The notes: generated by a model from the letters alone, not told the origin. A DNA stretch of 64,000 nt from Pelagerythrobacter marinus (GCF_009827515.1 NZ_WTYO01000001.1:477501-541500), one strand, 5' to 3'. Counted from the stretch's first letter, positions 457-16,703 are shown. Numbers and translations: made by a program.

Positions 457-1694
457 TGCAGGGAGAGATCCTCTTCCTCGCGCACCGGGTCCCGTTCCCC
501 CCCGATCGCGGGGACAAGATCCGTTCGCACCACCTTCTTGCCGCGCTTGCGCGTATCGCCCCGGTGCATGTCGGCTGCCTCGGCGAGACGGAGCAGGACA
601 TGGCACAGGGCGGCGCGCTGGCCGCGCTGGCCGCCAGCCATTGCCTCGTGCGGCGCAGGCGCAGCCTGGCGCTGGCGGGGGCGGAGGCGCTGGTGCGCGG
701 CATCCCGGTCAGCCTCGCGGCCTTCGACGATCGCCGGTTGCGCCGCTGGGTCGCCCGCACGATCGCGGAACGGCCCGTATCGACGATCTTCGTGTTCTCC
801 GGCCAGATGGGCCAATACGTCCCGGACGACTTCCGCGGGCGGGTGGTCACCGACTTGTGCGACGTCGATTCGGCCAAGTTCGAAGCATACGGCCGGCAGG
901 GGCGCGGGCCGCGCGCCTGGATCGACCGGCGCGAGGCGCGGCTGCTGTCGCGCGAGGAGGCGCGCCTCGCCCGCCGGTCGGCCACCACGCTGCTCGTCAG
1001 CGAGGCGGAAGCGGCCCTCTTCCGCAGTCGGCTGGGCGATCGCGCGGCCGCCGATGTCCGCGCGCTGCGCAACGGAATCGATACCGCGGCCTTCGATCCG
1101 GCAGGCACCGGGCCGCATCCGGCGCTGGCGAACGCGGCCGGACCGCACGTCGTCTTCACCGGGCAGATGGATTACGCCCCCAATGTCGCCGCGGTCGAAC
1201 GCGCGGCGCAGCATATCCTGCCGGCGATCCGGCGGCACCATCCCGGCGCGACCTTCCACGTCGTCGGGCGTGCCCCCACGGCGGAGGTCCGCGCGCTCGA
1301 CCGGAATGCCGGCGTGCGCGTCTGGGGCGAGGTACCCGACGTGCGCCCCTTCCTTGCCGCGGCGGACCTGGTGCTCGTCCCCCTGGCGATCGCGCGCGGG
1401 ATCCAGAACAAGGTACTCGAAGCCATGGCCATGGCCCGCCCCGTAGTGCTGACGCCCGAGGCGGCGACCGGGATCGAGGCGGAGGACGGCGCGCATTTTG
1501 CCGTCGCAGGCGACGACGCGGCGCTCGCGCACCGGGCGCTGGCCCTGCTTGGCGACGCCTGCGCGGCGCGGGCGATGGGCGAGGCGGCGCGCGCTTTCGT
1601 CCAGGCGGAGCAGGGATGGGCGGCGATGCTCTCCCCGCTGCCGGCGATCCTGGGTGCCGGCGAACCGGCCGGAAGGCAGCGCGATGCCGCCTGA
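456..1694 (+). CDS. XrtA/PEP-CTERM system glycosyltransferase (TIGR03087-like, GT4 fold)
   Basis: A 412-residue protein. The start chosen is ATG 456, which overlaps the FemAB stop as TGATG; a longer open frame upstream gives only arginine-rich shadow sequence. The N-terminus (ILFLAHRVPFPPDRGDKIR) and the C-terminal donor-binding region, with VWGEVPDVRPFLAAADLVLVP followed by ARGIQNKVLEAMAMA-RPVV, are typical of GT-B sugar transferases of the exosortase-A cluster. It probably adds a sugar during assembly of the exopolysaccharide linked to the XrtA system, on the cytoplasmic face. It overlaps xrtA by 11 bases, so the locus reads as a coupled operon. Donor and acceptor cannot be told from sequence. 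Confidence 0.88.
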   Translation: MQGEILFLAHRVPFPPDRGDKIRSHHLLAALARIAPVHVGCLGETEQDMAQGGALAALAASHCLVRRRRSLALAGAEALVRGIPVSLAAFDDRRLRRWVARTIAERPVSTIFVFSGQMGQYVPDDFRGRVVTDLCDVDSAKFEAYGRQGRGPRAWIDRREARLLSREEARLARRSATTLLVSEAEAALFRSRLGDRAAADVRALRNGIDTAAFDPAGTGPHPALANAAGPHVVFTGQMDYAPNVAAVERAAQHILPAIRRHHPGATFHVVGRAPTAEVRALDRNAGVRVWGEVPDVRPFLAAADLVLVPLAIARGIQNKVLEAMAMARPVVLTPEAATGIEAEDGAHFAVAGDDAALAHRALALLGDACAARAMGEAARAFVQAEQGWAAMLSPLPAILGAGEPAGRQRDAA

Positions 1695-3243
1695 TGCCGC
1701 GCTCTCCTGGCGCAGGGACGCTCTCGTCGAGGCGATCCCTGCCGGCTGGCGCAAGCCGCTGGCGCGGATCGCGCTCGCCTGGCTGGCGCTGGCGGTCGTC
1801 GCCGCCGCCGACTGGGCGACGATGGCGGGCAAGTGGTGGAACGTTTCCACGTATAACCACGTCCTGTTCGTGCCGCTGATCGTGGGCTGGCTGGCCTGGG
1901 TCCGCCGCCGGCAGGTCGGCGCTCTGGTGCCCCGCGCCTGGTGGCCGGGCCTTGCCGCGCTGGCGGGCGCACTGTTCCTGTGGCTGCTGGGCCGCCTGGC
2001 GGGCGTCAACAGCGCCAGCCAGCTGGGCGCCGTCCTCGCCCTGCAGGCCGCGGTTCCGGCCTTGCTGGGCCCGCGGGTGGCGGCGGCGCTGCTGTTTCCG
2101 CTGGCCTACATGCTCTTCCTCGTGCCTTTCGGCGACGAGCTGGTGCCGGCCCTGCAGATGATCACGGCGGACATCGTGATCTGGCTGACGCGCGTCAGCG
2201 GCGTTCCCGCGCATATAGAAGGCGTCTTCATCGATACGCCCGTCGGCCTGTTCGAGGTGGCGGAAGCCTGTTCGGGCGTGCAGTTCCTCGTCGCCATGCT
2301 GGCGCTCGGGGTTCTGATCGCGCAGACCTGTTTCCGGGGCTGGGGGCGGCGTATCGCCTTCCTGGCTTTCGCGCTGTCCCTGCCGATCCTCGCCAACGGC
2401 GTGCGCGCCTGGGGCACGATCTACATCGCCCAGTTCCAGGGGATCGAATTTGCCGAGGGCTTCGATCACATCTTCTACGGCTGGATATTCTTCGCGCTGG
2501 TCGTCGCCGTCCTGCTGGGCGTTACCTGGCGCTGGTTCGACCGCGATCCGGAGGACCCGGGCGTCGATGTCGAAAGGCTGCAGCGTTCGCGCCTGCTCGA
2601 CCGGCTGGGCCGCGCGACAATGCCGGCCGGCGCGGCGCTGGCCGCCGTCCTCGCGCTTGCCGGCGGTTTCGCGCTCTGGGCCGGGCTTGCCGCGCGCGTC
2701 GAGGCCGAGGTGCCTGCACGCCTCGCCTTGCCCGAGGTGCCGGGATGGGAGCGGGTCGACTATGCCCCGCAGGTGCCCTGGATGCCGCGCGCGACCGGCG
2801 CGGCGCACCGGCGGATCGCGCGCTATCGCAGCGAGGCGGGGGAGGAAGTCGATCTGTTCTACGCGCTCTATGCCGCGCAGGACGATGCCCGCGACGCTTC
2901 GGCTTATGGCGAGGGGGCGCTGGTTCCCGACACGCCCTGGCGCTGGGTCGAACCGGGGCGCAGCATGCCGCAGGCCGCGGGCGCGGTCCTCCTCGCCCAT
3001 GGCAACCTGCGGCGCGTGGCGGAAACGACCTGGCGCTCGGGCGATCTCACGACCGGCAGCGCCGCCCGGCTCAAGCTGGAGGCGATGGCCAGCCGGCTCC
3101 TGCTGCGGCGGCAGCCGACGGCAACCCTGATCCTGTCCGTGGAAGGGAGGCCCGCCGATGAAAGCGCGGCGGCGATCGACCGCTTCGTCGCGGCGATGGG
3201 CGGACGCGACGCGTGGATGGACCGCGCGGCCGGCCTGCGATAA
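1684..3243 (+). CDS. xrtA: Exosortase A with fused EpsI-type C-terminal domain
   Basis: A 519-residue inner-membrane protein starting at ATG 1684 inside the end of the glycosyltransferase gene. Residues about 25-290 form a multi-pass membrane domain with the exosortase catalytic triad: Cys196 in EACSGVQFLVAM, Arg241 in NGVRAWG and His262 in DHIFYGW. These are the residues expected of the archaeosortase/exosortase transpeptidase superfamily, which cleaves PEP-CTERM proteins after their sorting signal. From about residue 310 follows a soluble domain after another membrane segment, resembling EpsI (DUF3485), which in other bacteria is a separate gene of the exopolysaccharide locus. No PEP-CTERM substrate is visible in the window. 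Confidence 0.92.
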   Translation: MPPDAALSWRRDALVEAIPAGWRKPLARIALAWLALAVVAAADWATMAGKWWNVSTYNHVLFVPLIVGWLAWVRRRQVGALVPRAWWPGLAALAGALFLWLLGRLAGVNSASQLGAVLALQAAVPALLGPRVAAALLFPLAYMLFLVPFGDELVPALQMITADIVIWLTRVSGVPAHIEGVFIDTPVGLFEVAEACSGVQFLVAMLALGVLIAQTCFRGWGRRIAFLAFALSLPILANGVRAWGTIYIAQFQGIEFAEGFDHIFYGWIFFALVVAVLLGVTWRWFDRDPEDPGVDVERLQRSRLLDRLGRATMPAGAALAAVLALAGGFALWAGLAARVEAEVPARLALPEVPGWERVDYAPQVPWMPRATGAAHRRIARYRSEAGEEVDLFYALYAAQDDARDASAYGEGALVPDTPWRWVEPGRSMPQAAGAVLLAHGNLRRVAETTWRSGDLTTGSAARLKLEAMASRLLLRRQPTATLILSVEGRPADESAAAIDRFVAAMGGRDAWMDRAAGLR

Positions 3244-3253
3244 GGGCCGGGCC

Positions 3254-5152
3254 ATGTGCGGCATCGCCGGGATTTTCCATTGCGGCACCCCCAAGCCGGT
3301 CGATCCCGAGCGCGTCGCGCGCATGACGGACGCGCTCGCCCATCGCGGACCAGACGGGTCGGGCGTCTGGACCGGCCCCGGGGTCGGGCTGGGCCACCGC
3401 CGGCTGTCGATCATCGACATCGCCGGCTCGCCCCAGCCGATGCATTCGGCCGATGGCCGTGCGGCGATCGTGTTCAATGGCGAGATCTACAATTTCCGGG
3501 AGCTTCGCCGCGAGCTGGAGGCCGGGGGTGCCCAGTTCCGCACCGATGGCGATACCGAGGTGATCCTGGCCGCCTGGTCGCGCTGGGGCGTCGAGTGCCT
3601 TGCGCGCCTGCACGGCATGTTCGCGTTCGCGCTCTACGACGCCCGGCGCCGGGAACTCGTGCTGGCGCGCGACCGCCTGGGGGTGAAACCGCTTTTCACC
3701 GCGCAGCTCAGCGATGGCAGCGTGGCTTTCGCTTCCGAGCTCAAGGGCCTGCTGGCCCATCCGCTCCTGCGGCGCGAGGTCGATCCGCTGGCGATCGACG
3801 ATTATCTTGCCTGGGGCTACGTCCCCGATCACCGTTCGATCCTGAAGGGCGTCGGCAAGCTCGCGGCCGGGCACTACCAGGTCCTGCGCCACGAGGCGCC
3901 GCCCCCGCCGCCGGTGCAGTGGTGGGATGTCGATTTCAGCCATCGGCGCAGCGGCAGCACGGCCGACCTTTCGGCCGAACTGCTGCACCACATGCGCGAG
4001 GCGGTGGGATCGCGCATGGTGGCCGACGTGCCGCTGGGCGCGTTTCTTTCCGGCGGGGTCGATTCGTCCTCGGTCGTCGCGCTGATGGCGGAATCGAGCC
4101 GCGACCCGGTCAGCACCTGTTCGATCGGGTTCGACGTGGCCGAACTGGACGAGACGCGACACGCGGAAAAGGTCGCCCGGCTGTTCGGGACCGATCACCA
4201 CGCCCGCTCGGTCGATCCCGACGATTTCGCGGCGGCGGACCGGATCGCGTCGATGTTCGACGAACCCTTTGCCGATGCGTCCGCCCTGCCGACCTGGCGC
4301 GTGTGCCAGCTCGCGCGCGAGCACGTGACGGTCGCCCTCTCGGGCGACGGGGCGGACGAGGCGTTTGCCGGCTATCGGCGGCAGGTCTTTCACGCCCGCG
4401 AGGAGCAGGCGCGCGCGGTCCTGCCCGGCGCGTTGCGCGGCCCGATGTTCGGCGCGCTCGGTGCCGCCTGGCCCAAGGCCGACTGGGCGCCGCGCCCGCT
4501 CAGGGCCAAGGCGACCCTGCTCTCGCTCGCCCGCGACGGGGCAGAGGGATATGCGCGTGCCGTGGGCGTCGTGCCGGCGGAGATGCGCGCGCGCCTCTAT
4601 GCCGACAGCTTCGCCGGGAGGCTCGACGGCTATCGCGCCGAAGACGCCTTCGTGCGCACGATGCGCGCGGCCCCGGCGCGCAGTGGCCTCGACCGGGCGC
4701 AATATGCCGATCTCAAGTTCTGGTTGCCCGGCGACATCCTGACCAAGGTCGATCGCACCAGCATGGACGTGAGCCTGGAGGCGCGCGAGCCGCTGCTCGA
4801 TCACCGGCTGATCGAATTTGCCGCCCAGTTGCCCCTCCGCCAGCGGATAAGGGGGCGACAGGGCAAGTGGCTGCTCAAGCATACGATGCGCCGATACCTG
4901 CCGGACGACGTGCTGTTCCGGCCCAAACAGGGCTTCGTTACCCCGATCGCCCAGTGGCTGCGCGGGCCCCTGGCGGGGGAGGCGCGGGCGATCGCCACCG
5001 GCGCGCGCCTCGCCCGCACCGGATGGTTCGATGCCGCGCAGCTTTCGCGCATTGCCGAGGCCCATATCGCCGGCCGGGCCGACAATTCGCGCCTGCTATG
5101 GCAATTGCTGATGCTCGACCGGTCGCTCGACCGGCTCGGCATTTCGGGCTGA
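3254..5152 (+). CDS. XrtA-associated amidotransferase, asparagine synthase-like
   Basis: A 632-residue protein. The start ATG 3254 is chosen because it places Cys2 (M-C-G-I-A-G) as the N-terminal nucleophile of a class II glutamine amidotransferase; upstream in-frame ATGs would bury it. Residues 2 to about 200 are the glutaminase domain. The ATP-pyrophosphatase loop SGGVDSSS lies at 266-273, and LSGDGADEAFAGY is the second synthetase signature. Length and context match the exosortase-A-associated amidotransferase 1 family rather than housekeeping AsnB. It probably amidates a sugar or amino-acid substituent of the exopolysaccharide. It follows xrtA by 10 bases and is the last gene of the locus. 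Confidence 0.9.
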   Translation: MCGIAGIFHCGTPKPVDPERVARMTDALAHRGPDGSGVWTGPGVGLGHRRLSIIDIAGSPQPMHSADGRAAIVFNGEIYNFRELRRELEAGGAQFRTDGDTEVILAAWSRWGVECLARLHGMFAFALYDARRRELVLARDRLGVKPLFTAQLSDGSVAFASELKGLLAHPLLRREVDPLAIDDYLAWGYVPDHRSILKGVGKLAAGHYQVLRHEAPPPPPVQWWDVDFSHRRSGSTADLSAELLHHMREAVGSRMVADVPLGAFLSGGVDSSSVVALMAESSRDPVSTCSIGFDVAELDETRHAEKVARLFGTDHHARSVDPDDFAAADRIASMFDEPFADASALPTWRVCQLAREHVTVALSGDGADEAFAGYRRQVFHAREEQARAVLPGALRGPMFGALGAAWPKADWAPRPLRAKATLLSLARDGAEGYARAVGVVPAEMRARLYADSFAGRLDGYRAEDAFVRTMRAAPARSGLDRAQYADLKFWLPGDILTKVDRTSMDVSLEAREPLLDHRLIEFAAQLPLRQRIRGRQGKWLLKHTMRRYLPDDVLFRPKQGFVTPIAQWLRGPLAGEARAIATGARLARTGWFDAAQLSRIAEAHIAGRADNSRLLWQLLMLDRSLDRLGISG

Positions 5153-6321: not shown

Positions 6322-7437
6322 TTACCCTTGCGCGCCGTGTCCCAGGGCCATGTAATCGGCGCTGCGCATTTCCTCCAGTCGGCTGACGGTGCGGGCGAAT
6401 TCGAAACTGCCGTCGCCCGCGGGGTAGAGGCCATCCGGCTCCGCGTCGGCGGTGGCGAACAGCTTGACCCTCAGTTCGTAGAGCGCATCGACCAGCTTGG
6501 TGAAGCGGATGGCCTCGTTGCGGCGGTCGGGCCCCATGACGGGAATGCCGACGACGATCACCGTGTGATAGGCGCGCGCGATCGCCAGGTAGTCCGCCGC
6601 CCCGCGATTCTCGCCGCACAGCCGCTTGAAACTGAACACGGCCACGCCCTTCAGGCTCTTGGGAACGTGGAGCGCGCGCCCGCCGCCGAGATCGAGCTCG
6701 GCGCTCGGCACGTGGGCGGCGTCTTCGGGCTTGTAGTCGGTCAGGCGGAAGAAGGCCTCGCGCACCTGGGCGGTCGCTTCGGGCCCCAGTGGCGTGTGCC
6801 AGGTGTCGATCTCCCCCAGCCGGTCGAGCCGGTAATCGACCGGGCCGTTGAGCGCGAGGACGTCGAGCTCGTCCTCCACCAGGTCGATGAAGGGCAGGAA
6901 CAGCGAACGGTTGAGGCCGTCCTTGTAGAGATCGCGCGGGGGGCGGTTGCTGGTGGTGACGACGGTGACCCCCTCGTCGCGGATCAGGGCGGTGAACAGC
7001 CGGCTCATGATCGCGGCATCGGCGGTGTTGTTGACCACCATCTCGTCGAACGCCAGGCAGCGGACCCCTTGCGCGATCCGGGCCGCTGCCGGAGCGACGG
7101 GATCGCCGGTTTCCTTCGCCCGTTCCTCGCGGATCAGCGCGTCGACCTCCAGCATGAAGGCGTGGAAATGGACGCGGCGCTTATGCTCGATGTCGAGCGT
7201 CTCGACGAACAGGTCCATCAGCATCGACTTGCCGCGGCCCACGCCGCCCCACATGTAGATGCCGCGCGGTCGCGCCGGCGCGCGTGTGAACAGGCGGTCG
7301 AGCAGGCCCGGCTCGCGGTGCCGCTCGAGCGCTTCCTGGAGCGATTGCAGCCGTTCGGCTGCCTCGCGCTGCTGCGGATCGGGGCGCAGTTCGCCCGCGG
7401 CGACCAGCGCCTCGTACCGCGCGAGCATTGCGCTCAC
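6322..7437 (-). CDS. zapE: Cell division protein ZapE (AFG1-like ATPase)
   Basis: A 371-residue AAA-type ATPase, the usual length of ZapE. The Walker A motif is GGVGRGKS at 64-71 and Walker B is CLAFDE ending at Asp131-Glu132. TTSNRPPRDLYKDGLNR after Walker B is the sensor region of the AFG1/ZapE family. ZapE acts at the constricting Z ring in E. coli and is related to mitochondrial Lace1/Afg1. The start is GTG 7437, overlapping the thioesterase stop as GTGA; an ATG three codons later is the alternative. Last gene of an sdhB-thioesterase-zapE run. Confidence 0.9.
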   Translation of the reverse strand: MSAMLARYEALVAAGELRPDPQQREAAERLQSLQEALERHREPGLLDRLFTRAPARPRGIYMWGGVGRGKSMLMDLFVETLDIEHKRRVHFHAFMLEVDALIREERAKETGDPVAPAAARIAQGVRCLAFDEMVVNNTADAAIMSRLFTALIRDEGVTVVTTSNRPPRDLYKDGLNRSLFLPFIDLVEDELDVLALNGPVDYRLDRLGEIDTWHTPLGPEATAQVREAFFRLTDYKPEDAAHVPSAELDLGGGRALHVPKSLKGVAVFSFKRLCGENRGAADYLAIARAYHTVIVVGIPVMGPDRRNEAIRFTKLVDALYELRVKLFATADAEPDGLYPAGDGSFEFARTVSRLEEMRSADYMALGHGAQG

Positions 7438-7889
7438 TTGCGGCTGGCCTTGCGCACCAGGGCGGTGAAACCGGCCACCAGGTGATCGCTCTGGACGACC
7501 TCACCGCGCAGGAACAGCAGGCGCCCGGTCTCGCGCAGAACCTCGACCACCGCGTCGAGCGGCTCGTCGACTTTCCCCGCACCGATAAACTGGGTCGACA
7601 GCTCCAGCGTCACCGCCGGCCCGGCATCGCCATCGGTCAGCGTGCGCATCGCCGCGAACAGCGAGATATCGATCAGCGCCAGCGTCACCGCGCCGTGGAT
7701 CATGTCCTGCAGGTTGGTGTGCCGCCGTTCGGGGAACATCCGCAGGCGGCACCTGTCCCCTTCGGTCCGTACCAGCAGCTCGCCCATGACGACCGGATTG
7801 AAGCGCGTTTCGTCGCGCAGGCGCCAGGTGTGCCAGCCCGGATGGTCGGGGTGCTCGCGGTATTCGAACGCCGAAGATTCGCTGTTCAC
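7434..7889 (-). CDS. Hotdog-fold thioesterase (PaaI family)
   Basis: A 151-residue protein if it starts at GTG 7889, two bases after the sdhB stop; upstream in-frame ATGs lie inside sdhB. The central DMIHGAVTLALIDISLFAAM is the helix and HG-containing loop of PaaI-type hotdog thioesterases, which hydrolyse acyl-CoA (often aryl-CoA) thioesters. VTLELSTQFIGAG matches the following strand. The substrate cannot be read from sequence. The gene is coupled to zapE downstream by a 4-base overlap. The link to succinate dehydrogenase is positional only. Confidence 0.8.
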   Translation of the reverse strand: MNSESSAFEYREHPDHPGWHTWRLRDETRFNPVVMGELLVRTEGDRCRLRMFPERRHTNLQDMIHGAVTLALIDISLFAAMRTLTDGDAGPAVTLELSTQFIGAGKVDEPLDAVVEVLRETGRLLFLRGEVVQSDHLVAGFTALVRKASRK

Positions 7890-7891
7890 GC

Positions 7892-8674
7892 TCAGATCTG
7901 GCGCTCGACCAGCATCTTCTTGGTCTCGGCGATCGCCTTGGCGGGGTTCAGCCCCTTGGGGCACACGTTGGCGCAGTTCATGATCGTGTGGCAGCGGTAG
8001 AGCCGGAACGGGTCCTCCAGCGCGTCGAGCCGCTCACCGGTCATCTCGTCGCGGCTGTCGGCCAGCCAGCGATAGGCCTGGAGCAGGATCGCCGGGCCGA
8101 GGAACTTGTCCGAATTCCACCAGTAGCTGGGGCAGGCGGTCGAGCAGCAGGCGCACAGGATGCATTCGTAGAGGCCGTCCAGCTTCTCGCGCTGTTCGGG
8201 GCTCTGCAGGCGTTCCTTGCCGCTGGGCGTGGTCGAAACGGTCTGCAGCCACGGGCGGATCGACGCGTACTGGGCGTAGAAGTGCGAGAAATCGGGCACC
8301 AGGTCCTTCACCACGTCCATGTGGGGCAGGGGGGTGATCCGGATTTCGCCCTTCAGGTCCTCCATCGCGGTGGTGCAGGCGAGGCCGTTCTTGCCGTTCA
8401 TGTTCATCGAGCACGAACCGCAGATCCCCTCGCGGCAGGAACGGCGGAAGGTGAGCGTGGGATCGACTTCGTTCTTGATCTTGATCAGCGCGTCGAGGAC
8501 CATCGGCCCGCAATCGTCGAGGTCGATCTCGAACGTGTCGTAGCGCGGGTTTTCGCCGCTATCGGGATCGTACCGGTAGATCCGGAACTTCTGCACCCGC
8601 GCGGCGCCTTCGGCCCGGTGGACATTGCCCTTGCGCGAGATCTTCGAGTTCTTCGGGAGGGTGAAGGTCGCCAT
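7892..8674 (-). CDS. sdhB: Succinate dehydrogenase iron-sulfur subunit
   Basis: A 260-residue protein with all three cluster motifs: the plant-type [2Fe-2S] ligands in [12 protein letters not shown] plus the Cys of NGLAC, then [12 protein letters not shown] and [14 protein letters not shown] for the [4Fe-4S] and [3Fe-4S] centres. It carries electrons from SdhA flavin to the membrane quinone in complex II. The start is ATG 8674, beginning [15 protein letters not shown], preceded by an AGGA ribosome site. sdhC, sdhD and sdhA are not adjacent: the next gene upstream is an unrelated ATP-grasp gene. A plausible promoter of its own lies at 8701-8728. Confidence 0.97.
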
Positions 8675-8700
8675 AGTTCGATCCTGTTGCTTCGGCAGTC

Positions 8701-8728
8701 TCTCTAGCGCTTCGCATTGCGCTGGCAA
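8701..8728 (-). promoter_or_regulatory. Candidate sigma-70 promoter of sdhB
   Basis: On the minus strand TTGCCA (8728-8723), a 16-base spacer, then TAGAGA (8706-8701). Transcription would begin about 20 bases before the sdhB ATG. The same TTGnCn/TAGnnn pattern recurs before several genes in this window. Inferred by eye. Confidence 0.45.
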
Positions 8729-8744
8729 GGGCGCGGCGCAAACT

Positions 8745-9734
8745 TCACCGGGCCATGAGCCCGTGCCGCGCGAGGCTTTCGGCGAGGATGGTCTCGATCA
8801 GTTCGGGCTGGCTCCAGCCTGCCAGCGCCGCCGCGCGGCCGAAGACCTTCTGCGACCAGAGGTTGCAGTTGAGGTTGAGCTCGAGGAACGTGATCTCGCC
8901 GGTGTCCTCGTTCACGCGGAATTCGAACCGGCCATAGTCGAACGGCCGATACTCGTTCCACGCCTTGCGCGTCAGGTCGGCGATCCGCGCGGCCATGTCC
9001 GCGTTCTCGAACGGGTCGAGCGAGTATTTCTGGCTCCGGTCCACGAGATCGCGCTTCTCCCGGTAGGTGCGCAGGTGCGAGGGATCGGCCTGGCGGAAGA
9101 TCATCATCGGCAGGATCGTCGGCTCCCCCCTGACGGTGATAACCGGCACTTCGACGTCGCTGCCTTGCAGGAACGGTTCGACGATCGCGTCGTGACCCAG
9201 CGCGTGGACATCGGCGACGGCGCGCTCCACGCTGGCGAGGTCGGTCGCATCGTTGACGCCCCAGCTGGCCGACGAGGCATTGGGCTTCACCACGTAGCGG
9301 GTGGCCGGCGGCACGGCGGACAGGTCCACCGGGGCGCCGCGGCGAAAGATCGCCCAGGGCGCGGTCGGCACGTCGGCCGCGCGCGCCGCCCGCTTGGCCA
9401 GGTGCTTGTCGTCCGCCAGCCCGCGCAGGATCGGGCTGGCCCCGAGGTAGGGTATGCCCTTGCGCTCGCACAGCAGCGGACAGAGCATTTCCGAATTGAA
9501 GAAACCGGCCCGGTTGAGCAGGGGGAAGACGAAATCGATCTCGGGGTTTTCGAACAGAACCTCGAACCGGTCGGCGATGACGAGGTTCAGGCCCAGGCCT
9601 TCGAGCACCTGGCGCATCTCGCGGTGATAGAGCGCGTGATTGCCGTCTTCGGGGTGCAGTTCGCCGTCCCACAGGGCGTTCTTGGCGATGAAGAGGATGC
9701 GGAGCCGCTCCCGGGCCGCGGCATCGATGGTCAT
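8745..9734 (-). CDS. ATP-grasp ligase, D-Ala-D-Ala ligase-like, paralogue 1
   Basis: A 329-residue protein from ATG 9734 ([18 protein letters not shown]). [12 protein letters not shown] carries the ATP-binding Lys of the ATP-grasp fold, and [10 protein letters not shown] followed by [11 protein letters not shown] holds the acidic and Asn metal ligands that sit near the C-terminus in D-Ala-D-Ala ligases. The usual NTxPG is replaced by NLNCNLW, so this is not a housekeeping Ddl. It is paralogous to the gene at 11373-12389; in the stretch from HPEDGNHA to DDK about 59 of 84 positions agree by eye. It is divergent from the PLP enzyme at 9866. It probably joins a carboxylate to an amine; the substrates are unknown. 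Confidence 0.8.
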
Positions 9735-9781
9735 GGGACGCAGTGCGGTCACGAACGATTGCCCTTGTTGCGCTGCGGCGT

Positions 9782-9834
9782 TTGTCGCGGTGCAGCAAAT
9801 TCGCTGGAATGCGTCCCTAGGTCTGTTAGGTCTG
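9782..9834 (+). promoter_or_regulatory. Candidate promoter and 8-bp direct repeat before the PLP enzyme
   Basis: TTGTCG (9782-9787), a 17-base spacer and TGGAAT (9805-9810) could drive the PLP gene. Just after, TAGGTCTG occurs twice (9818-9825 and 9827-9834), overlapping the expected start of transcription. That arrangement would suit an operator. Both parts are inferred by eye in the 131-base divergent gap. Confidence 0.3.
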
Positions 9835-9865
9835 CACGCAAGCGAAAAAGCCATCCGGGTCGTCG

Positions 9866-11359
9866 ATGCGAACAGCCACCAGCCAGATGTCGCGCGAGTT
9901 CGCGGACGATCCACGCGCCCATGAACTGGTCGCCCGGCTTTGCAGCGGCGGCGACGAGCGGCTGGCACTCGATCCGCAAACCGGCCTCAACCGCTACATG
10001 TCGGGTCCGTACCCGCGCGACATCGTCGCCTATGCTTCCTCCACGGCCAACGACATCTCGCGCGATGCCTTCCGCCACCTGCTCGGCCAGGGTCGGCCGG
10101 CGGACGGGGACTATGGCGCCTTGCTGGAGGGCATGCGCGGGCGCCTGCGCGGCGCGTTCGGGCTGGGCGGCGATGTCGATGTCGTCTTCGCGCCGTCGGG
10201 GACCGACCTCGAATATGTGGCGCTGGCCGCGACGATCGATCGCTCGCCCGGGGGCGTCCACAATGTCCTGCTCGGCGCGGACGAGGTGGGGCGGGGGTGC
10301 GTTCATTCGGCGGCCGGGCGTTATTTCAACGATCGCACCGCGCCCGGCCGCACCGTCGTACCCGGCGAAAGCGTGCCCGGGCTGGAGGCCGTGTCGCTGA
10401 CCGACATCCCGGTGCGCTGCGGGCGGGGGCTGGCGCGCACCAGCGGCCAGATCGCCGCCAGCATCGAGGGGGAGATCGCGCGCGCTCGCGCCGGCGGACG
10501 CCACGCGCTGGTCCATGTCGTCCACGGATCGAAGACCGGCCTGATCCTGCCCGCGCTCGACGACCTGGACCGCCTGCTGGCTCGCTGGGGACAGGCGATG
10601 ACGCCCGTGGTCGATGCGTGCCAGGTCCGCCTGTCGCCCGGCGATGTCGCGGCCTATCTGGACCGCGGGGCGATCGTGCTGATGACCGGTTCCAAGTTTG
10701 CCGGCGGCGTCGCGTTCAGCGGCTGGGCGCTCGTGCCCGCCGCCCTCGTGCGCCGCGCGCCGCCGCTGCCCGCCGGGTTCGATGCCCTGTTCCGCCGGGC
10801 CGAATGGCCACAAGGCTGGAACGGGCGCGAGGCGCTGCCCGATCGGGGCAACCCGGGGCTGGCCACGCGGCTGGAGGGGGCGCTGTTCGAACTGGAGCGG
10901 TTCCGCGCCCTGCCGGCGGATGCGGTCTCGCGCGTGATCGATGCCTTCCAGCGTGCCCTGCGGCAGGGCCTGGTCGCGCCGCTGCACTTGCGCGAAGTCG
11001 AACGCTCCGCCGACCCCGACCCCGACACCGACACCGACACCGGCCAGCGCGCCGCGCCGCACGCCGATCTCCTCGCCACGCTGGCGACCCTCGACGTCTC
11101 GGCCCTGCCGGCGGCGCGGAGCTTCGATGGCGCCGTATCGCTGCACGCGCGGCTCGCGCGTGGGGGCATCCGGCTGGGCCAGCCGGTCAGGAGCGTGCGC
11201 CTGCCCTGCGGGGGCTGGGGCGGGACCTTGCGCCTCGGCCTGTCGATGCCGCAGATCGCCGCTCTCGCGCCCCTGTCGCAGTCTGCCTGCGAAGCGGCCT
11301 TTGCCGCGCATTTCGAGCTCGTGACGGAGGCCCTGCGCCAGTGCGAAGCCGTCGCCTGA
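9866..11359 (+). CDS. Fold-type I PLP-dependent enzyme of unknown specificity
   Basis: A 497-residue protein. FAPSGTDLEYVALAA resembles the phosphate-loop region of class V aminotransferase-like enzymes. Asp250 (VVDACQ) is placed to bind the pyridine nitrogen, and Lys277 in TGSKFAGG is the likely PLP Schiff-base lysine 27 residues later. HVVHGSKTGLILP precedes the Asp. I do not recognise the exact family: decarboxylase, aminotransferase and lyase are all possible. Residues 383-392 are an Asp-Pro/Asp-Thr repeat encoded by a hexanucleotide tract. No good ribosome site is visible; ATG 9887 is an alternative start. It lies between two paralogous ATP-grasp genes, divergent from one and convergent with the other, suggesting shared chemistry. 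Confidence 0.75.
   Translation: MRTATSQMSREFADDPRAHELVARLCSGGDERLALDPQTGLNRYMSGPYPRDIVAYASSTANDISRDAFRHLLGQGRPADGDYGALLEGMRGRLRGAFGLGGDVDVVFAPSGTDLEYVALAATIDRSPGGVHNVLLGADEVGRGCVHSAAGRYFNDRTAPGRTVVPGESVPGLEAVSLTDIPVRCGRGLARTSGQIAASIEGEIARARAGGRHALVHVVHGSKTGLILPALDDLDRLLARWGQAMTPVVDACQVRLSPGDVAAYLDRGAIVLMTGSKFAGGVAFSGWALVPAALVRRAPPLPAGFDALFRRAEWPQGWNGREALPDRGNPGLATRLEGALFELERFRALPADAVSRVIDAFQRALRQGLVAPLHLREVERSADPDPDTDTDTGQRAAPHADLLATLATLDVSALPAARSFDGAVSLHARLARGGIRLGQPVRSVRLPCGGWGGTLRLGLSMPQIAALAPLSQSACEAAFAAHFELVTEALRQCEAVA
11012..11041 (+). repeat. In-frame hexanucleotide repeat (GACnCC) in the PLP-enzyme gene
   Basis: Five GAC codons alternate with CCC or ACC, encoding Asp-Pro/Asp-Thr at residues 383-392. 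It would sit in a surface loop between the large and C-terminal domains and could vary in length without shifting frame. Confidence 0.7.
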
Positions 11360-11372
11360 CAGGCGGCGCGGG

Positions 11373-12389
11373 CTAGCCCGCGATCAGCGCGTTGCGCCGC
11401 CAGGATTCGGCCAGGAGCGTCTCGATCAGGTCGCCGTGGCTGAAGCCGGCCTGGGCCGCCGCCTTGGCCATGACCTTTTCCGACCACAGGTTGCAGTTGA
11501 GATTGATCTCGATGAAATTCACGTCGCCGGTGGCGAGATCCAGCCGGAACTCGATCCGGCCATAGTCGAAGGGCACGAATTCCTGCGCGACCTTGCGGGC
11601 CATGGCCTCGATCCGCGGGGCGAACTCGGCATGGTCGAAACGCTTCAGCGCCGCCTTCTCGGTGTTCTGGACCAGATCGCGCTTCTCGTAATAGGTCCAC
11701 AGCTTCTGCGTGTCCTCGCGCTCGTACCACAGCATGGGCAGGGCGACCGGCTCGTCGCGGATGGTGATGAACGCGCACTGGATGTCGTAACCGTCGAGGT
11801 AGGGCTCCACGATCGCGTCGTGGCCCTGGCCGTGGATGTCGGCGATGGCATTGGCCACCCCGTTCCAGTCGGAGGCATCCGAGATGCCCCAGCTGGCGGA
11901 GGAGGCATTGGGCTTGATCACCCACCGGCCCCCGGGCGCGGGCGGCAGGTCCTTTTCCAGCACGGGGCCGCCCCGGCGATAACAGAACCACGGGGCAGTG
12001 GGCACGCCGGCGTGGGCGGCCGCCAGCTTCGACACCGACTTGTCGTCGCCCATCCCGCGCAGGAACGGCATCGCGCCGAGATAGGGGATGCGGTGCATGT
12101 TGCACAGCAGCGGGATCAGCATCTCGCTGTTGACGAAGCCGCCACGGTTGAGGAGCGGGAAGACGAAATCGACCTCCGGCCGCTCGAACAGCGCCTTGTA
12201 CGTATCCGCGAACCGGAGGTTGAGGCCGAGGCTTTCCAGCGTCGTGCGCACTTCGTGGTGATAGATCGCGTGGTTGCCGTCTTCGGGATGCATCCCGCCC
12301 CCCCACAGGACGTGCTTGGCCATGAACAGCAGGCGGACGCGCTCCTTGGCGTCGTCGGGAATGCGCAGGGGCTGGGGAGAATCGGGCAT
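11373..12389 (-). CDS. ATP-grasp ligase, D-Ala-D-Ala ligase-like, paralogue 2
   Basis: A 338-residue protein from ATG 12389 (PDSPQPLRIPDDAKERVRLLF); open sequence further upstream is a shadow of RNase E. It repeats the plan of the gene at 8745-9734: [45 protein letters not shown] for ATP, and IEFRLDLATG with [14 protein letters not shown] for metal binding. It ends 14 bases from the end of the convergent PLP gene. Conserved pocket residues with differing surfaces suggest that the two paralogues run related but distinct ligations, or form a heteromer. The product is unknown; housekeeping D-Ala-D-Ala ligase is unlikely given the altered C-terminal motif. Confidence 0.8.
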   Translation of the reverse strand: MPDSPQPLRIPDDAKERVRLLFMAKHVLWGGGMHPEDGNHAIYHHEVRTTLESLGLNLRFADTYKALFERPEVDFVFPLLNRGGFVNSEMLIPLLCNMHRIPYLGAMPFLRGMGDDKSVSKLAAAHAGVPTAPWFCYRRGGPVLEKDLPPAPGGRWVIKPNASSASWGISDASDWNGVANAIADIHGQGHDAIVEPYLDGYDIQCAFITIRDEPVALPMLWYEREDTQKLWTYYEKRDLVQNTEKAALKRFDHAEFAPRIEAMARKVAQEFVPFDYGRIEFRLDLATGDVNFIEINLNCNLWSEKVMAKAAAQAGFSHGDLIETLLAESWRRNALIAG

Positions 12390-12505
12390 CGGGGGGTCTC
12401 GTCGGTTGGGACAGGCCCGCCATCTAGGCGCGAACGCGGCGCGCCGCCAGAGCCCTCTTGCACCGGCTCGCTGGGCAGGGATCGCGGCAGCGGTGCGAAC
12501 AGCGA

Positions 12506-12558
12506 GAAGGGGCGGAACGATCCGCGTGCACGCAACACGCGGGCCATTCCGCCCCTTC
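12506..12558 (-). terminator. Long hairpin downstream of rne, without a U tract
   Basis: Two perfect 12-base arms (12506-12517 and 12547-12558, GAAGGGGCGGAA and its complement) enclose a second 7-base stem (12522-12528 with 12536-12542). It lies just after the rne stop on the minus strand. No T run follows, so it may be an mRNA 3'-end stabiliser or a Rho-assisted stop rather than a classical terminator. Confidence 0.5.
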
Positions 12559-12576
12559 GTCGGCGCCTGTTGCGGC

Positions 12577-15396
12577 TTACTGCCCGAAAGTGCGCTGCCA
12601 CCAGCCGCGGCGCGGAGAGGACGTCTTGCCTTCCTCCTGCGCGGCGGGCGCGGTCTCGGCCTCGCTCTCGTCTGCCGGTGCGGCGGCATCGGCGGTCTGG
12701 GGCGCGGAGGCCGGCTCCTCGCGGCTTTCCGCAGGCGGGGCTTGCGGGGCCGGTTCATCGTCGGCCTTCTTGCGCCGGCGCGTGCGCTTGGGCTTTTCAG
12801 CCGGTGCCTCGGCCTCCGCTTCGGCTTCGGCCTTGGCGGGGCCAGCGCTTTCGGCTGCGGGTGCCTGCGCCTCCTCGGCCTTCTTGCGCCGGGTGCGCCG
12901 CTTGGGCTTCGGAGCCTCCTCGGTCTCGGCTTCGGCCGCCGGGGTTTCCGCGGGGGAGTCGCCGGCCGGCTCTTCCGCCGCCGCGTCCTTGGCCTTCGCC
13001 TTGGCACGCGGCTTGCGCTTGGCCGGCGGAGCAGCCTCCTCCCCGTCTTCGGCCTTCTTGCGGCGCGTGCGCTTCTTCGGCTTGGGTTCTTCCTCGGCCC
13101 CGGCCGGCTGGTCCGGCGCGTCCGCGGTCGCTTCGGCGCCCGGGGCGACGGCCATGTCCTCGCTCACGCGTTCGGCGACCGCTTCGGGCGTCTCGATCTC
13201 GCTTTCGCCGGCGTTATCGCCGTCCTCGCGATCGCGGCCGCCGCGCCGCCGGCGTCCGCCCCGGCGGCGGCGCTTGCGCGGCTTGCCCTCGTCCTCTTCC
13301 GAGGCGGGGCCGCCGTCGCTGTCGCCGTCCTCGTTACCGGTGGATTCGTCGCCGGCGGTTTCGTCGTCGTCCCTGTCGTCGCCGCCCTCGTCGCCGTTGC
13401 GGCCCTTGTTGCGGCCGCGGCCACCCCGGCGGCGGCGCTTGCGCTTGCGGTTGCCGTTGTCGTCGTCCTCGTCGTCGCGGTCCTCGGCCTGTTCGTCGGC
13501 CTCGGGCTCGTCCTCGTCGTCGACGATCGGTTCGAACTTCGGTGCCTGCGCCGGCTTGGGCCCGGAGCTGGAGACGCTCATCTTCGCGCCTTCTTCCTCA
13601 CCCTCGGGCACGACTTCGACGGTGACGCCGTAACGGCGCTCGATCTCGACCAGGTCGTCGCGCTTGGAATTGAGCAGGTAGACCGCCGCCTCGGTGCTGG
13701 CGGCCAGCGTGATGACCGTGCCCTTGCCCTTGGCCGCTTCGTCCTCGATCAGGCGCAGGGCCGAAAGGCCCGCGCTCGATGCCGTGCGGACAAGGCCGGT
13801 GCCGTCGCAGTGCGGGCATTCGCGGGTGGTCGCTTCCAGCACGCCCGTGCGCAGGCGCTGCCGGCTCATCTCCATCAGGCCGAAGCCGGAAATGCGGCCG
13901 ACCTGGATCCGCGCCCGGTCGCTCTTCAGCGCGTCTTTCAGCGCGCGTTCGACCTTCCGGTTGTTGGAGTTGTACTCCATGTCGATGAAGTCGATCACCA
14001 CCAGGCCGGCCATGTCGCGCAGGCGCAGCTGGCGCGCGATTTCCTTGGCCGCTTCGAGGTTGGTGGACAGGGCCGTCTGCTCGATCCCGTGTTCCTTGGT
14101 CGAACGGCCGGAGTTGATGTCGATCGAGACGAGCGCCTCGGTCGGGTTGATGACCAGATAGCCGCCGCTCTTCAACTGCACGACCGGGTCGTACATCGCG
14201 CGCAGCTGGTCCTCCGCGCCATAGCGCTGGAACAGGGGGACCGGGTCGGAATAGGCCTTCACCCGCCGGGCGTGGCTGGGCATCAGGAGCTTCATGAACT
14301 CCTTCGCCGAGCGGTAGCCGGCTTCGCCCTCGACCACGACTTCCTCGATCTCGCGGTTGTAGATGTCGCGAATCGCCCGCTTGATCAGGTCGCTGTCCGA
14401 ATGGATCAGCGTGGGGGCGCTGGAGGAAAGCGTCTTCTCGCGGATCTCGTCCCACAGGCGCGCGAGATAGTCGAAGTCGCGCTTGATCTCGGTCTTGGTG
14501 CGCTGGAGGCCGGCCGTGCGGACGATCAGGCCCATCGTGCGCGGCAGCTTGAGATCGCCGACGATCTGCTTCAGCCGCTTGCGATCGCTGGCGCTGGAAA
14601 TCTTGCGCGAGATGCCGCCGCCGTGGCTGCTGTTGGGCATCAGCACGGTGTAGCGGCCGGCGAGGCTGAGGTAGGTCGTCAGCGCGGCACCCTTGTTGCC
14701 GCGTTCTTCCTTGACCACCTGGACCAGCAGGACCTGCCGGCGCTGGATCACGTCCTGGATCTTGTAGCGGCGGCGCAGCGCCTGGCGCCGGGCGCGGACC
14801 TCGTCCACTTCCTTGGCCCGCGCGCGGCCCTTGCCCTGGCGGCGGCCGCGACCCCGGCGGCCGCGGCGCGAACCGTTGCCTTCTTCCTCGTCGTCGCTGT
14901 CGTCGTCGCCATCGTCGTCGCCGTTCGCGACCTGGCCTTCCTCGATCGTGGCGACCTTGTCCTTCTCGGACGTGTCGATTTCCTCGACCCCGTCCTCGGC
15001 GAATTCCTCGACCAGCGATTCGCCGGTCTCGTCGTCGGCGTCGTACTCGTCGCCCGGAACGTCGCCGCGTTCCTCTTCCTCGGCGCGCAGGCGCGCTTCT
15101 TCCTCGGCAGCCTCGGCCTCTTCGGCCAGGAGCTGTTCGCGGTCTTCCTTCGGGATCTGGTAGTAGTCGGGGTGGATCTCGCTGAAGGCGAGGAACCCGT
15201 GCCGGTTGCCGCCGAAATCGACGAAGGCCGCCTGGAGGCTGGGTTCGACCCGGGTTACCTTGGCGAGGTAGATATTGCCCTTGATTTGCCGATGTTCGGC
15301 GGATTCGAAATCAAATTCCTCGATCCGGTTGCCCTTGAGCACCGCCACCCGCGTTTCTTCCGGGTGGCGCGCATCGATAAGCATGCGCGTTGCCAT
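12577..15396 (-). CDS. rne: Ribonuclease E
   Basis: A 939-residue endoribonuclease. The start is ATG 15396 (ATRMLIDARHPEETR), preceded by GGAGATTTTTAC. The N-terminal S1 domain begins about residue 40 and is split by an insertion of about 110 residues that is first strongly acidic (poly-Asp/Glu) and then arginine-rich (RRGRRGRGRRQGKGR). The RNase H-like and DNase I-like catalytic regions follow, with DINSG and VVIDFIDME acids. The Zn-link Cys527 and Cys530 lie in CPHCDGTG. After about residue 625 comes a disordered non-catalytic tail with Arg-rich patches and three similar copies of KPKRRTRRKKAEE, the expected scaffold for degradosome partners and RNA. It acts in mRNA decay and rRNA/tRNA processing. 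Confidence 0.95.
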   Translation of the reverse strand: MATRMLIDARHPEETRVAVLKGNRIEEFDFESAEHRQIKGNIYLAKVTRVEPSLQAAFVDFGGNRHGFLAFSEIHPDYYQIPKEDREQLLAEEAEAAEEEARLRAEEEERGDVPGDEYDADDETGESLVEEFAEDGVEEIDTSEKDKVATIEEGQVANGDDDGDDDSDDEEEGNGSRRGRRGRGRRQGKGRARAKEVDEVRARRQALRRRYKIQDVIQRRQVLLVQVVKEERGNKGAALTTYLSLAGRYTVLMPNSSHGGGISRKISSASDRKRLKQIVGDLKLPRTMGLIVRTAGLQRTKTEIKRDFDYLARLWDEIREKTLSSSAPTLIHSDSDLIKRAIRDIYNREIEEVVVEGEAGYRSAKEFMKLLMPSHARRVKAYSDPVPLFQRYGAEDQLRAMYDPVVQLKSGGYLVINPTEALVSIDINSGRSTKEHGIEQTALSTNLEAAKEIARQLRLRDMAGLVVIDFIDMEYNSNNRKVERALKDALKSDRARIQVGRISGFGLMEMSRQRLRTGVLEATTRECPHCDGTGLVRTASSAGLSALRLIEDEAAKGKGTVITLAASTEAAVYLLNSKRDDLVEIERRYGVTVEVVPEGEEEGAKMSVSSSGPKPAQAPKFEPIVDDEDEPEADEQAEDRDDEDDDNGNRKRKRRRRGGRGRNKGRNGDEGGDDRDDDETAGDESTGNEDGDSDGGPASEEDEGKPRKRRRRGGRRRRGGRDREDGDNAGESEIETPEAVAERVSEDMAVAPGAEATADAPDQPAGAEEEPKPKKRTRRKKAEDGEEAAPPAKRKPRAKAKAKDAAAEEPAGDSPAETPAAEAETEEAPKPKRRTRRKKAEEAQAPAAESAGPAKAEAEAEAEAPAEKPKRTRRRKKADDEPAPQAPPAESREEPASAPQTADAAAPADESEAETAPAAQEEGKTSSPRRGWWQRTFGQ

Positions 15397-15833
15397 GTAA
15401 AAATCTCCGTGCGCGTCCGGGCGGGCTGTCGCCGGCCGGGATCGTCTGCGCAAATAAGTGGGATCCGCCGATCGCCTGGCGATGGGCGGCAATGTCGAAC
15501 CGGACGCCGCGAACCTTTTCGCGGTGCCGGAATGATGTGTCTGCAATCATGCGAATGCGCCTGTGTCGCGCCGCCCGGCCCGCCAGCGCGACGACGCCCG
15601 CCTGTGGCGGGGTGGTCATGCTCGGGGAGAGGCTTCTCATGAACTGCATCAACCTGTTGCGAGCGCCGGAGCAGGAAGCTGCCGGCGAGCCTGGGGCCCG
15701 TTTGGTTCCCGCGCCGGATAGCGGCGTCGGGCTGTGGCGGGCCGGAATTTCGGCCTTGCAGAGCTAGCATCCCGCCATTCGTTCGGCAACCATGTTGCGC
15801 ATCCTGCCCGCAACACCCTAACAACCGGGCGCA
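15397..15833. other. 437-base divergent gap: rne leader and amidase upstream region
   Basis: No convincing gene lies here: open frames on both strands lack family features and have shadow-like composition. Next to rne is the AT-rich ribosome site AGATTTTTAC. CCGCGAACCTTTTCGCGG (about 15507-15524) can form a short hairpin in the rne leader. RNase E is known in E. coli to control its own mRNA through its 5' leader, so a long structured leader would be expected, but that is inference. The amidase promoter is at the right end. Confidence 0.6.
15795..15824 (+). promoter_or_regulatory. Candidate promoter of the amidase gene
   Basis: TTGCGC (15795-15800), 18 bases, then TAACAA (15819-15824). The ATG at 15834 is only nine bases further on, so the transcript would have almost no leader. 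There is no strong ribosome site, which fits. Confidence 0.35.
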
Positions 15834-16703
15834 ATGTCCATGCGGCTTCAGATATGGCTGATCTTCCTGGCGCCGCCGGTTTTCCTGGCGGCGCTGTACC
15901 TGCTCGGCCTGTCGATCCCGGTGCCGCACCTGGGGCGCGACTACGTGGTGCGCGTGGCCCTGCCCGAGGCGGGCGACCCGGTCGGCCTGCCCACGATCCA
16001 CGGCCCGCCGGACCGGTCGCGGCCGCTGGTGGTGATCGACCCCGGCCACGGGGGGAAGGACCCGGGCGCCAGCGTCGAGGGGTACCGGGAAAAGGACATC
16101 GCCCTGGCGCTCGCCATGGCCCTGCGCGACAGGCTGGTGGCGGACGGCGGGGTCAGGGTCGCCCTGACGCGCGAGGACGATCGTTTCCTCGTGCTCGACG
16201 AACGGCCCGAGATCGCCCGCCGGCTCGACGCCGACCTGTTCGTGTCGATCCACGCGGATTCGGCCGGCGAAGCGAGCCGCGCGAGCGGGGCGAGCATCTA
16301 TACCCTTTCGGCCCGGGCCTCGAGCGAGGCCGCGGCGCGCTTCGCCGAACGGGAGAACGAGGCCGACCGGGTCAACGGCGTGCGGATCGAAGGGCAGGAT
16401 GCCGATGTCAGCGCGATCCTGGTCGAACTGTCGCAGCGCCGGGTGCAGGAGGCATCGGCCGAGTTCGCCGGGCTGATCGTGCGCGAGGGGGAAGGGGAAC
16501 TGGTCTTCCACCCGCGCCCGCGCCGGTCGGCGGCGCTGGCCGTGCTGCGCGCGCCCGACGTGCCGGCCGTGCTTTACGAAGCCGGCTTCATCACCAATCC
16601 GGAAGACGCGCGGCGCCTCGCCAGCCCCGAGGCGCGCGAGCGTTTTGCCGGCGTCATGGCGCGTGCGATCCGGATCTACTTCGCCCGCCAGGCCGGCACC
16701 TAA
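15834..16703 (+). CDS. N-acetylmuramoyl-L-alanine amidase (Amidase_3, AmiC-like)
   Basis: A 289-residue protein with one N-terminal membrane segment (about residues 6-28), which is either an uncleaved anchor or a signal sequence. The zinc ligands of the Amidase_3 family are visible: His72 in DPGHGG, Glu86 in REKDI and His140 in SIHADS, with the catalytic Glu249 in LYEAGFITN. It cleaves the amide bond between muramic acid and L-Ala of the peptide stem in the periplasm during cell separation. A second start, two codons in, is also possible. It precedes PBP1A by 46 bases, pairing a peptidoglycan hydrolase with a synthase. Confidence 0.93.
   Translation: MSMRLQIWLIFLAPPVFLAALYLLGLSIPVPHLGRDYVVRVALPEAGDPVGLPTIHGPPDRSRPLVVIDPGHGGKDPGASVEGYREKDIALALAMALRDRLVADGGVRVALTREDDRFLVLDERPEIARRLDADLFVSIHADSAGEASRASGASIYTLSARASSEAAARFAERENEADRVNGVRIEGQDADVSAILVELSQRRVQEASAEFAGLIVREGEGELVFHPRPRRSAALAVLRAPDVPAVLYEAGFITNPEDARRLASPEARERFAGVMARAIRIYFARQAGT

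Follow-up and report, generated by a model that had tools for sequence, protein, structure and literature searches.

An ATP-grasp ligase (AG1) and a PLP-dependent enzyme of Pelagerythrobacter marinus belong, by linkage and co-occurrence, to a gene set that also contains the nucleotidyltransferase NTP1 and a Wzx-type flippase, and we see an even chance that this set is a sphingomonad-specific module for an envelope precursor. The two genes travel with those for NTP1 and the flippase, so the set's probable role is to build a cell-envelope molecule and export it. Its product would be an amide-containing, nucleotide-activated envelope head group, the most specific proposal being a sphingolipid head group. 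A search of the literature found no account of this combination of ligase, PLP, nucleotidyltransferase, and flippase genes.

Gene arrangement in the window

The window, meaning the whole stretch of 64,000 nucleotides that was analysed, contains the following features, bracketed by sdhB and rne.

8745–9734, minus strand: AG1, a Ddl-fold ATP-grasp ligase of 329 amino acids, with its ATG at 9734
9735–9865, no strand: intergenic region of 131 bp between the divergent AG1 and PLP genes
9866–11359, plus strand: PLP, a fold-type-I PLP enzyme of 497 amino acids from a family without a name, with motifs SGTD, GSKTG, DACQxR, and TGSK277F
11373–12389, minus strand: AG2, a paralogous Ddl-fold ATP-grasp ligase of 338 amino acids, convergent with PLP

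The first-pass annotation had described a PLP gene flanked by two paralogous ATP-grasp genes, and this arrangement is confirmed by the coordinates, by the matches of both ligases to PF07478 (Dala_Dala_lig_C) above the Pfam cut-off, and by their 58% identity over 324 residues (E=1e-140). The strands rule out a single operon, AG1 and AG2 lying on the minus strand and PLP on the plus strand, and the 131-bp spacer between AG1 and PLP probably holds one promoter for each gene. The corresponding gap is mostly 53–250 bp in 30 loci, with start codons set heuristically, and an Rfam scan of window positions 7000–16000 gave no match, i.e., no riboswitch or RNA element. Elsewhere in the window (1684–5149), a membrane protein gene is followed by an asparagine synthase-like gene whose synteny with the sdhB region recurs among relatives; this segment looks like an exosortase/EPS-type locus.

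The ATP-grasp ligases

The predicted structure of AG1 falls on the Ddl fold, according to an AlphaFold model compared with Ddl structures by Foldseek. Residues K114, K150, E186, R269, E271, E285, and N287 are invariant in the AG alignment (A2), and in a profile alignment they coincide with the Lys, Lys, Glu, Arg, Asp/Glu, Glu, and Asn of Ddl, which we take from the Ddl literature to be the ATP/Mg residues; the earlier reading that the ligases keep the ATP-binding lysine and the metal-site residues agrees with this. The NTxPG...S-L segment of Ddl, presumably that for the second D-Ala, is replaced in the same kind of alignment by NLNCNLW..K-V, in which K296-V297 stand at the S-L position and the lysine is conserved. 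The NLNCNLW end that had been pointed out in place of NTxPG extends well beyond the window, as N[LI][NQ]CNLW occurs in 99 of the 115 AG proteins, with the remainder mostly carrying NLxANLW or NLSCNLW. The AGs thus share with the Ddl/Van enzymes (TIGR01205, PF07478) the fold, the ATP-binding lysines, and the Mg-binding E/E/N, but differ from them in this lysine-containing segment and in being practically limited to Sphingomonadales; a single match was found beyond that order, among 190 sampled genomes of the class, and it has no partner genes nearby.

Against the 245.65-bit cut-off of TIGR01205, the two AGs score only 73.3 and 68.8 bits, and both fall under every NCBIfam Ddl/Van cut-off. Another gene of the same genome, lying between those for MurB- and FtsQ-like proteins, encodes its own Ddl (murB-ddl-ftsQ, L003; read by eye), and AG1 and AG2 lie outside the dcw/mur cluster. 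The two ligases are distinct from the Ddl of their own genome and belong to an ATP-grasp clade apart from Ddl, an outcome that had been named as support for the first reading, and a Ddl role for them is rejected on the sub-cut-off scores and the separate Ddl. It could still be asked whether the two ligases serve peptidoglycan synthesis as auxiliary D-Ala-D-Ala (or D-Ala-D-X) ligases together with an alanine racemase-like PLP enzyme, as Ddl enzymes are their best characterised relatives by both HMM and fold. We regard this as very improbable, given a score of 73 of 245 bits, the separate Ddl, the replaced second-substrate segment, and a PLP model of fold type I with no alanine-racemase barrel. 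A ribosomal peptide, as in graspetide-like systems, was also considered as a ligase substrate.

In two genomes (G258 and G279), the AG alignment contains one in-frame TAG while PLP is open; the alignment may overrun the gene end, or AG may be broken.

The PLP enzyme

The PLP protein had been described as belonging to no recognised family, and this description stands: nothing in Pfam or NCBIfam matches it at E<=1, the class-V aminotransferase model PF00266 included, and profile searches of PDB sequences returned no significant match. Its AlphaFold model nevertheless belongs with confidence to fold type I of the PLP enzymes (mean pLDDT 90.5; Foldseek E=1.4e-13, probability 1.00), although the TM-score to class-V-like enzymes is only about 0.5 at about 15% identity. 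Among 23 diverse members of the family, K277 (TGSK), D250 and Q253 (DACQ), S111-G-T113, and K223 (SKTG) do not vary, and by their motif positions K277 would be the Schiff-base lysine, D250 would contact the pyridine nitrogen, and S111-G-T113 would hold the phosphate. With the class-V enzymes considered here (cysteine desulfurases, 2-aminoethylphosphonate and pyridoxamine-pyruvate aminotransferases, and C-S lyases), the PLP enzyme shares its overall fold, a DxxQ motif, and the lysine presumed to form the Schiff base, but it lacks a sequence-family match and carries the invariant K223 of SKTG at the position, in a weak alignment, of the SNTxG motif of a cysteine desulfurase. It is a member of a previously unnamed vitamin-B6-dependent family. 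One metagenome-assembled contig (L106, 6001–7384) has a PLP match in two pieces, possibly reflecting a frameshift or an assembly error.

Distant relatives of the PLP enzyme share 22–33% identity with the window protein (alignment A4), and a plasmid search returned only distant rhizobial relatives (about 29–37% identical). In several lineages such relatives adjoin an AADC-type decarboxylase and a protein of ~410 amino acids (A3), whose assignment as ATP-grasp-like comes from weak RimK (E=3e-4), Ddl, and GSH-S matches, the Pfam hits being scattered, and at another locus (L140) a relative lies beside an ATPgrasp_ST protein. That members of this one PLP family recur next to ligases of different ATP-grasp families supports a role for the PLP enzyme in supplying or editing a ligase substrate, and the initial proposal of an amine-handling PLP enzyme working with a carboxylate-amine ligase is consistent with it. 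Because this family, for which Pfam and NCBIfam have no model, recurs beside several ATP-grasp families, a single biochemical assay could explain many loci.

Several of the distant loci have features of their own. At five of them (L139, L141, L142, L144, and L146), from one genus with 7–8 Mb genomes, the PLP relative, the ATP-grasp-like gene, the AADC-type decarboxylase, and a putative glycosyltransferase-like protein lie together among flagellin/FlgK/FlgL-like genes, possibly for flagellin modification. Two others (L148, 8122–10395; L149, 8278–10494) encode a PLP-family domain extended by a long N-terminal region, with a double ATP-grasp protein close by, and L148 has an AADC-type decarboxylase gene between the two. 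On the Sinorhizobium medicae plasmid pWSM1115_3 (L136, 9998–11530), the PLP-family gene overlaps the gene that ends an NRPS operon, and a 4'-phosphopantetheinyl transferase is encoded nearby.

Conservation of the AG1/PLP pair

PLP occurs in 36 of 299 Sphingomonadales genomes, and AG is also present in 35 of these (Fisher p about 4e-20 for genome co-occurrence); the lone exception, G215, has a divergent PLP and no AG. AG1 lies divergently beside PLP in 78 of 80 named loci, the remaining 2 ending at a contig edge. The distances of AG1 and PLP co-vary (Mantel r=0.72 versus a null maximum of 0.13), a correlation that shared species history explains in part. AG2 forms its own clade, set off by a long derived branch, next to the Erythrobacteraceae AG1 group, and it flanks PLP in only a handful of loci. 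Of the three genes that were expected to stay together, AG1 and PLP do so, but AG2 does not. Since AG2 seldom adjoins PLP, the AG1-PLP-AG2 triplet is rejected as the functional unit, and what is conserved is the pair of divergent AG1 and PLP genes. AG2-type genes occur mostly in genomes without PLP, whereas genomes with PLP also have AG1; the duplication is therefore real, and the AG-PLP-AG layout is local and rare. PLP is in turn accessory, as it is missing from more than half of the genomes with AG and NTP.

Nucleotidyltransferase and flippase partners

Where PLP is missing, the gene that follows AG is commonly NTP1, which encodes a MobA-like nucleotidyltransferase (NTP_transf_3 in Pfam), and in Sphingopyxis-like loci the stop and start codons of the two genes touch. 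A strong NTP1 homologue is found in 87 of 89 genomes with AG versus about 28 of 210 without it; the thresholds for a strong match were picked by hand from tables, and three cut-offs give similar significance. NTP adjoins AG in 27 of the 80 PLP loci. In many loci a Polysacc_synt flippase is the neighbour of PLP or NTP, and NTP, AG, PLP, and flippase genes are contiguous in 14 loci, with outer neighbours that vary by lineage. In the genome of the window, NTP1 and the Polysacc_synt flippase are adjacent on another contig (G000:C12, at about 180 kb). No fifth conserved neighbour was found among 35 loci, nor any constant glycosyltransferase or CDP-alcohol transferase neighbour. The new observation is that the standing partner of AG is a MobA-like nucleotidyltransferase, often accompanied by a Wzx-type flippase, and these recurrent partners suggest that the product is an envelope precursor that is activated and exported across the membrane.

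Some observations weigh against the envelope module. Linkage of the flippase extends to only some of the loci, and its family is a broad one; PLP has the accessory distribution described above; about 28 genomes have NTP1-like genes but no AG; and one genome with both AG and PLP (G060) has no strong NTP1. The lack of a constant CDP-alcohol transferase or glycosyltransferase neighbour counts in the same direction, as does the fact that no phosphosphingolipid-type CDP-alcohol transferase was found in the genome of the window.

The first-pass annotation had favoured a small modified peptide or amide, and a soluble natural product of this kind, made by AG1, PLP, and AG2, would suit the logic of a PLP enzyme working with an amide ligase, as well as the distant PLP relatives that adjoin AADC-like decarboxylase and ATP-grasp-like genes or, in S. 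medicae, close an NRPS operon. However, AG2 is not a conserved partner, the constant partners are the nucleotidyltransferase and the flippase, and no additional biosynthetic gene recurs nearby, so that this product is unsupported and the reading appears rather unlikely.

For the envelope-precursor module, four steps may be envisaged. Starting from an amino acid, the PLP enzyme would make or remodel an amino compound, and AG1 would use ATP to join this amine to a carboxylate via an acyl-phosphate, as Ddl does, while AG2, where present, might serve a second substrate. NTP1 would then turn a phosphorylated intermediate into a nucleotide derivative, and the flippase would carry the finished lipid-linked product over the inner membrane.

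Possible connection to sphingolipids

Sphingomonads use envelope sphingolipids, whose head-group chemistry is known in part. Linked genes for a ligase, a PLP enzyme, a nucleotidyltransferase, and a flippase, differing from species to species at a chromosomal position that recurs, offer a genetic handle on this envelope chemistry.

In some sphingomonads NTP2, a paralogue of NTP1, is accompanied by DAGK_cat, Metallophos, CDP-OH_P_transf, LicC-like NTP, HAD, and flippase genes, and in other Alphaproteobacteria it lies near proteins that read by eye as LptF/LptG and Spt. The slot between rne and sdhB, which holds AG genes in Erythrobacteraceae, is occupied in L199 by NTP2, a flippase, a 395-amino-acid protein without assignment, and a HAD protein; the slot can thus take either AG or an NTP2-flippase set. 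In Caulobacter, the CofC-like nucleotidyltransferase CC_1153 is described, in the relevant passages, as required for CPG2 (PMC11324152).

These observations allow a more specific version of the envelope-precursor module, in which the set modifies a phosphosphingolipid head group: AG1 would amidate a glycerate-like carboxylate with the PLP-derived amine, and NTP1 and the flippase would stand in for the CofC-like nucleotidyltransferase and flippase of Caulobacter CPG2. The NTP2 clusters, the need for CC_1153 in CPG2, and the shared rne-sdhB slot speak for it, as does Spt (ceramide synthesis), which is encoded in the genome of the window (G000:C10, 52% identical) and was found in all 18 genomes tested, and is therefore non-discriminating. 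On the other side, identity between NTP1 and NTP2 is only about 30%, and both types co-exist in some genomes. The CC_1159/CPG-type CDP-alcohol transferase is present in only 2 of the 18 genomes and was not found in the genome of the window with a sphingomonad query (L201), where the candidate ceramide kinase is a weak DAGK-type match (G000:C10, 36% identical). The tie between the AG/PLP module and sphingolipids is suggestive, and the head-group version is tentative, its probability being a share of that given to the envelope-precursor module as a whole.

Comparison with known systems

The module resembles Wzx-dependent surface glycan export in that a flippase is encoded with the AG, PLP, and NTP genes, but no conserved glycosyltransferase or polymerase occurs in the AG/PLP cluster (35 loci). 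With the CPG/CPG2 region of Caulobacter (CC_1152-CC_1168), as presented in part of its description, it has in common a MobA/CofC-like nucleotidyltransferase and a flippase (PMC11324152). The NTP2 clusters resemble the CPG2 region of that description, the likeness between NTP2 and CC_1153 being one of gene context. In contrast to the module, ATP-grasp enzymes are not mentioned in the Caulobacter paper, and its passages on the head-group steps propose no PLP enzyme (PMC11324152).

It is conceivable, though somewhat doubtful, that sphingomonads make a new envelope lipid whose amide head group depends on a Ddl-derived ligase, a PLP-made amine, CofC-like activation, and Wzx-type flipping, with the PLP family acting as a general amine supplier for several ATP-grasp ligases. 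The PLP, decarboxylase, and ATP-grasp-like trio of other Proteobacteria (L139-L155) likewise places the PLP family beside an ATP-grasp-like gene, but it differs from the AG1/PLP pair in using another ATP-grasp-like family (A3) and in including an extra AADC-type decarboxylase.
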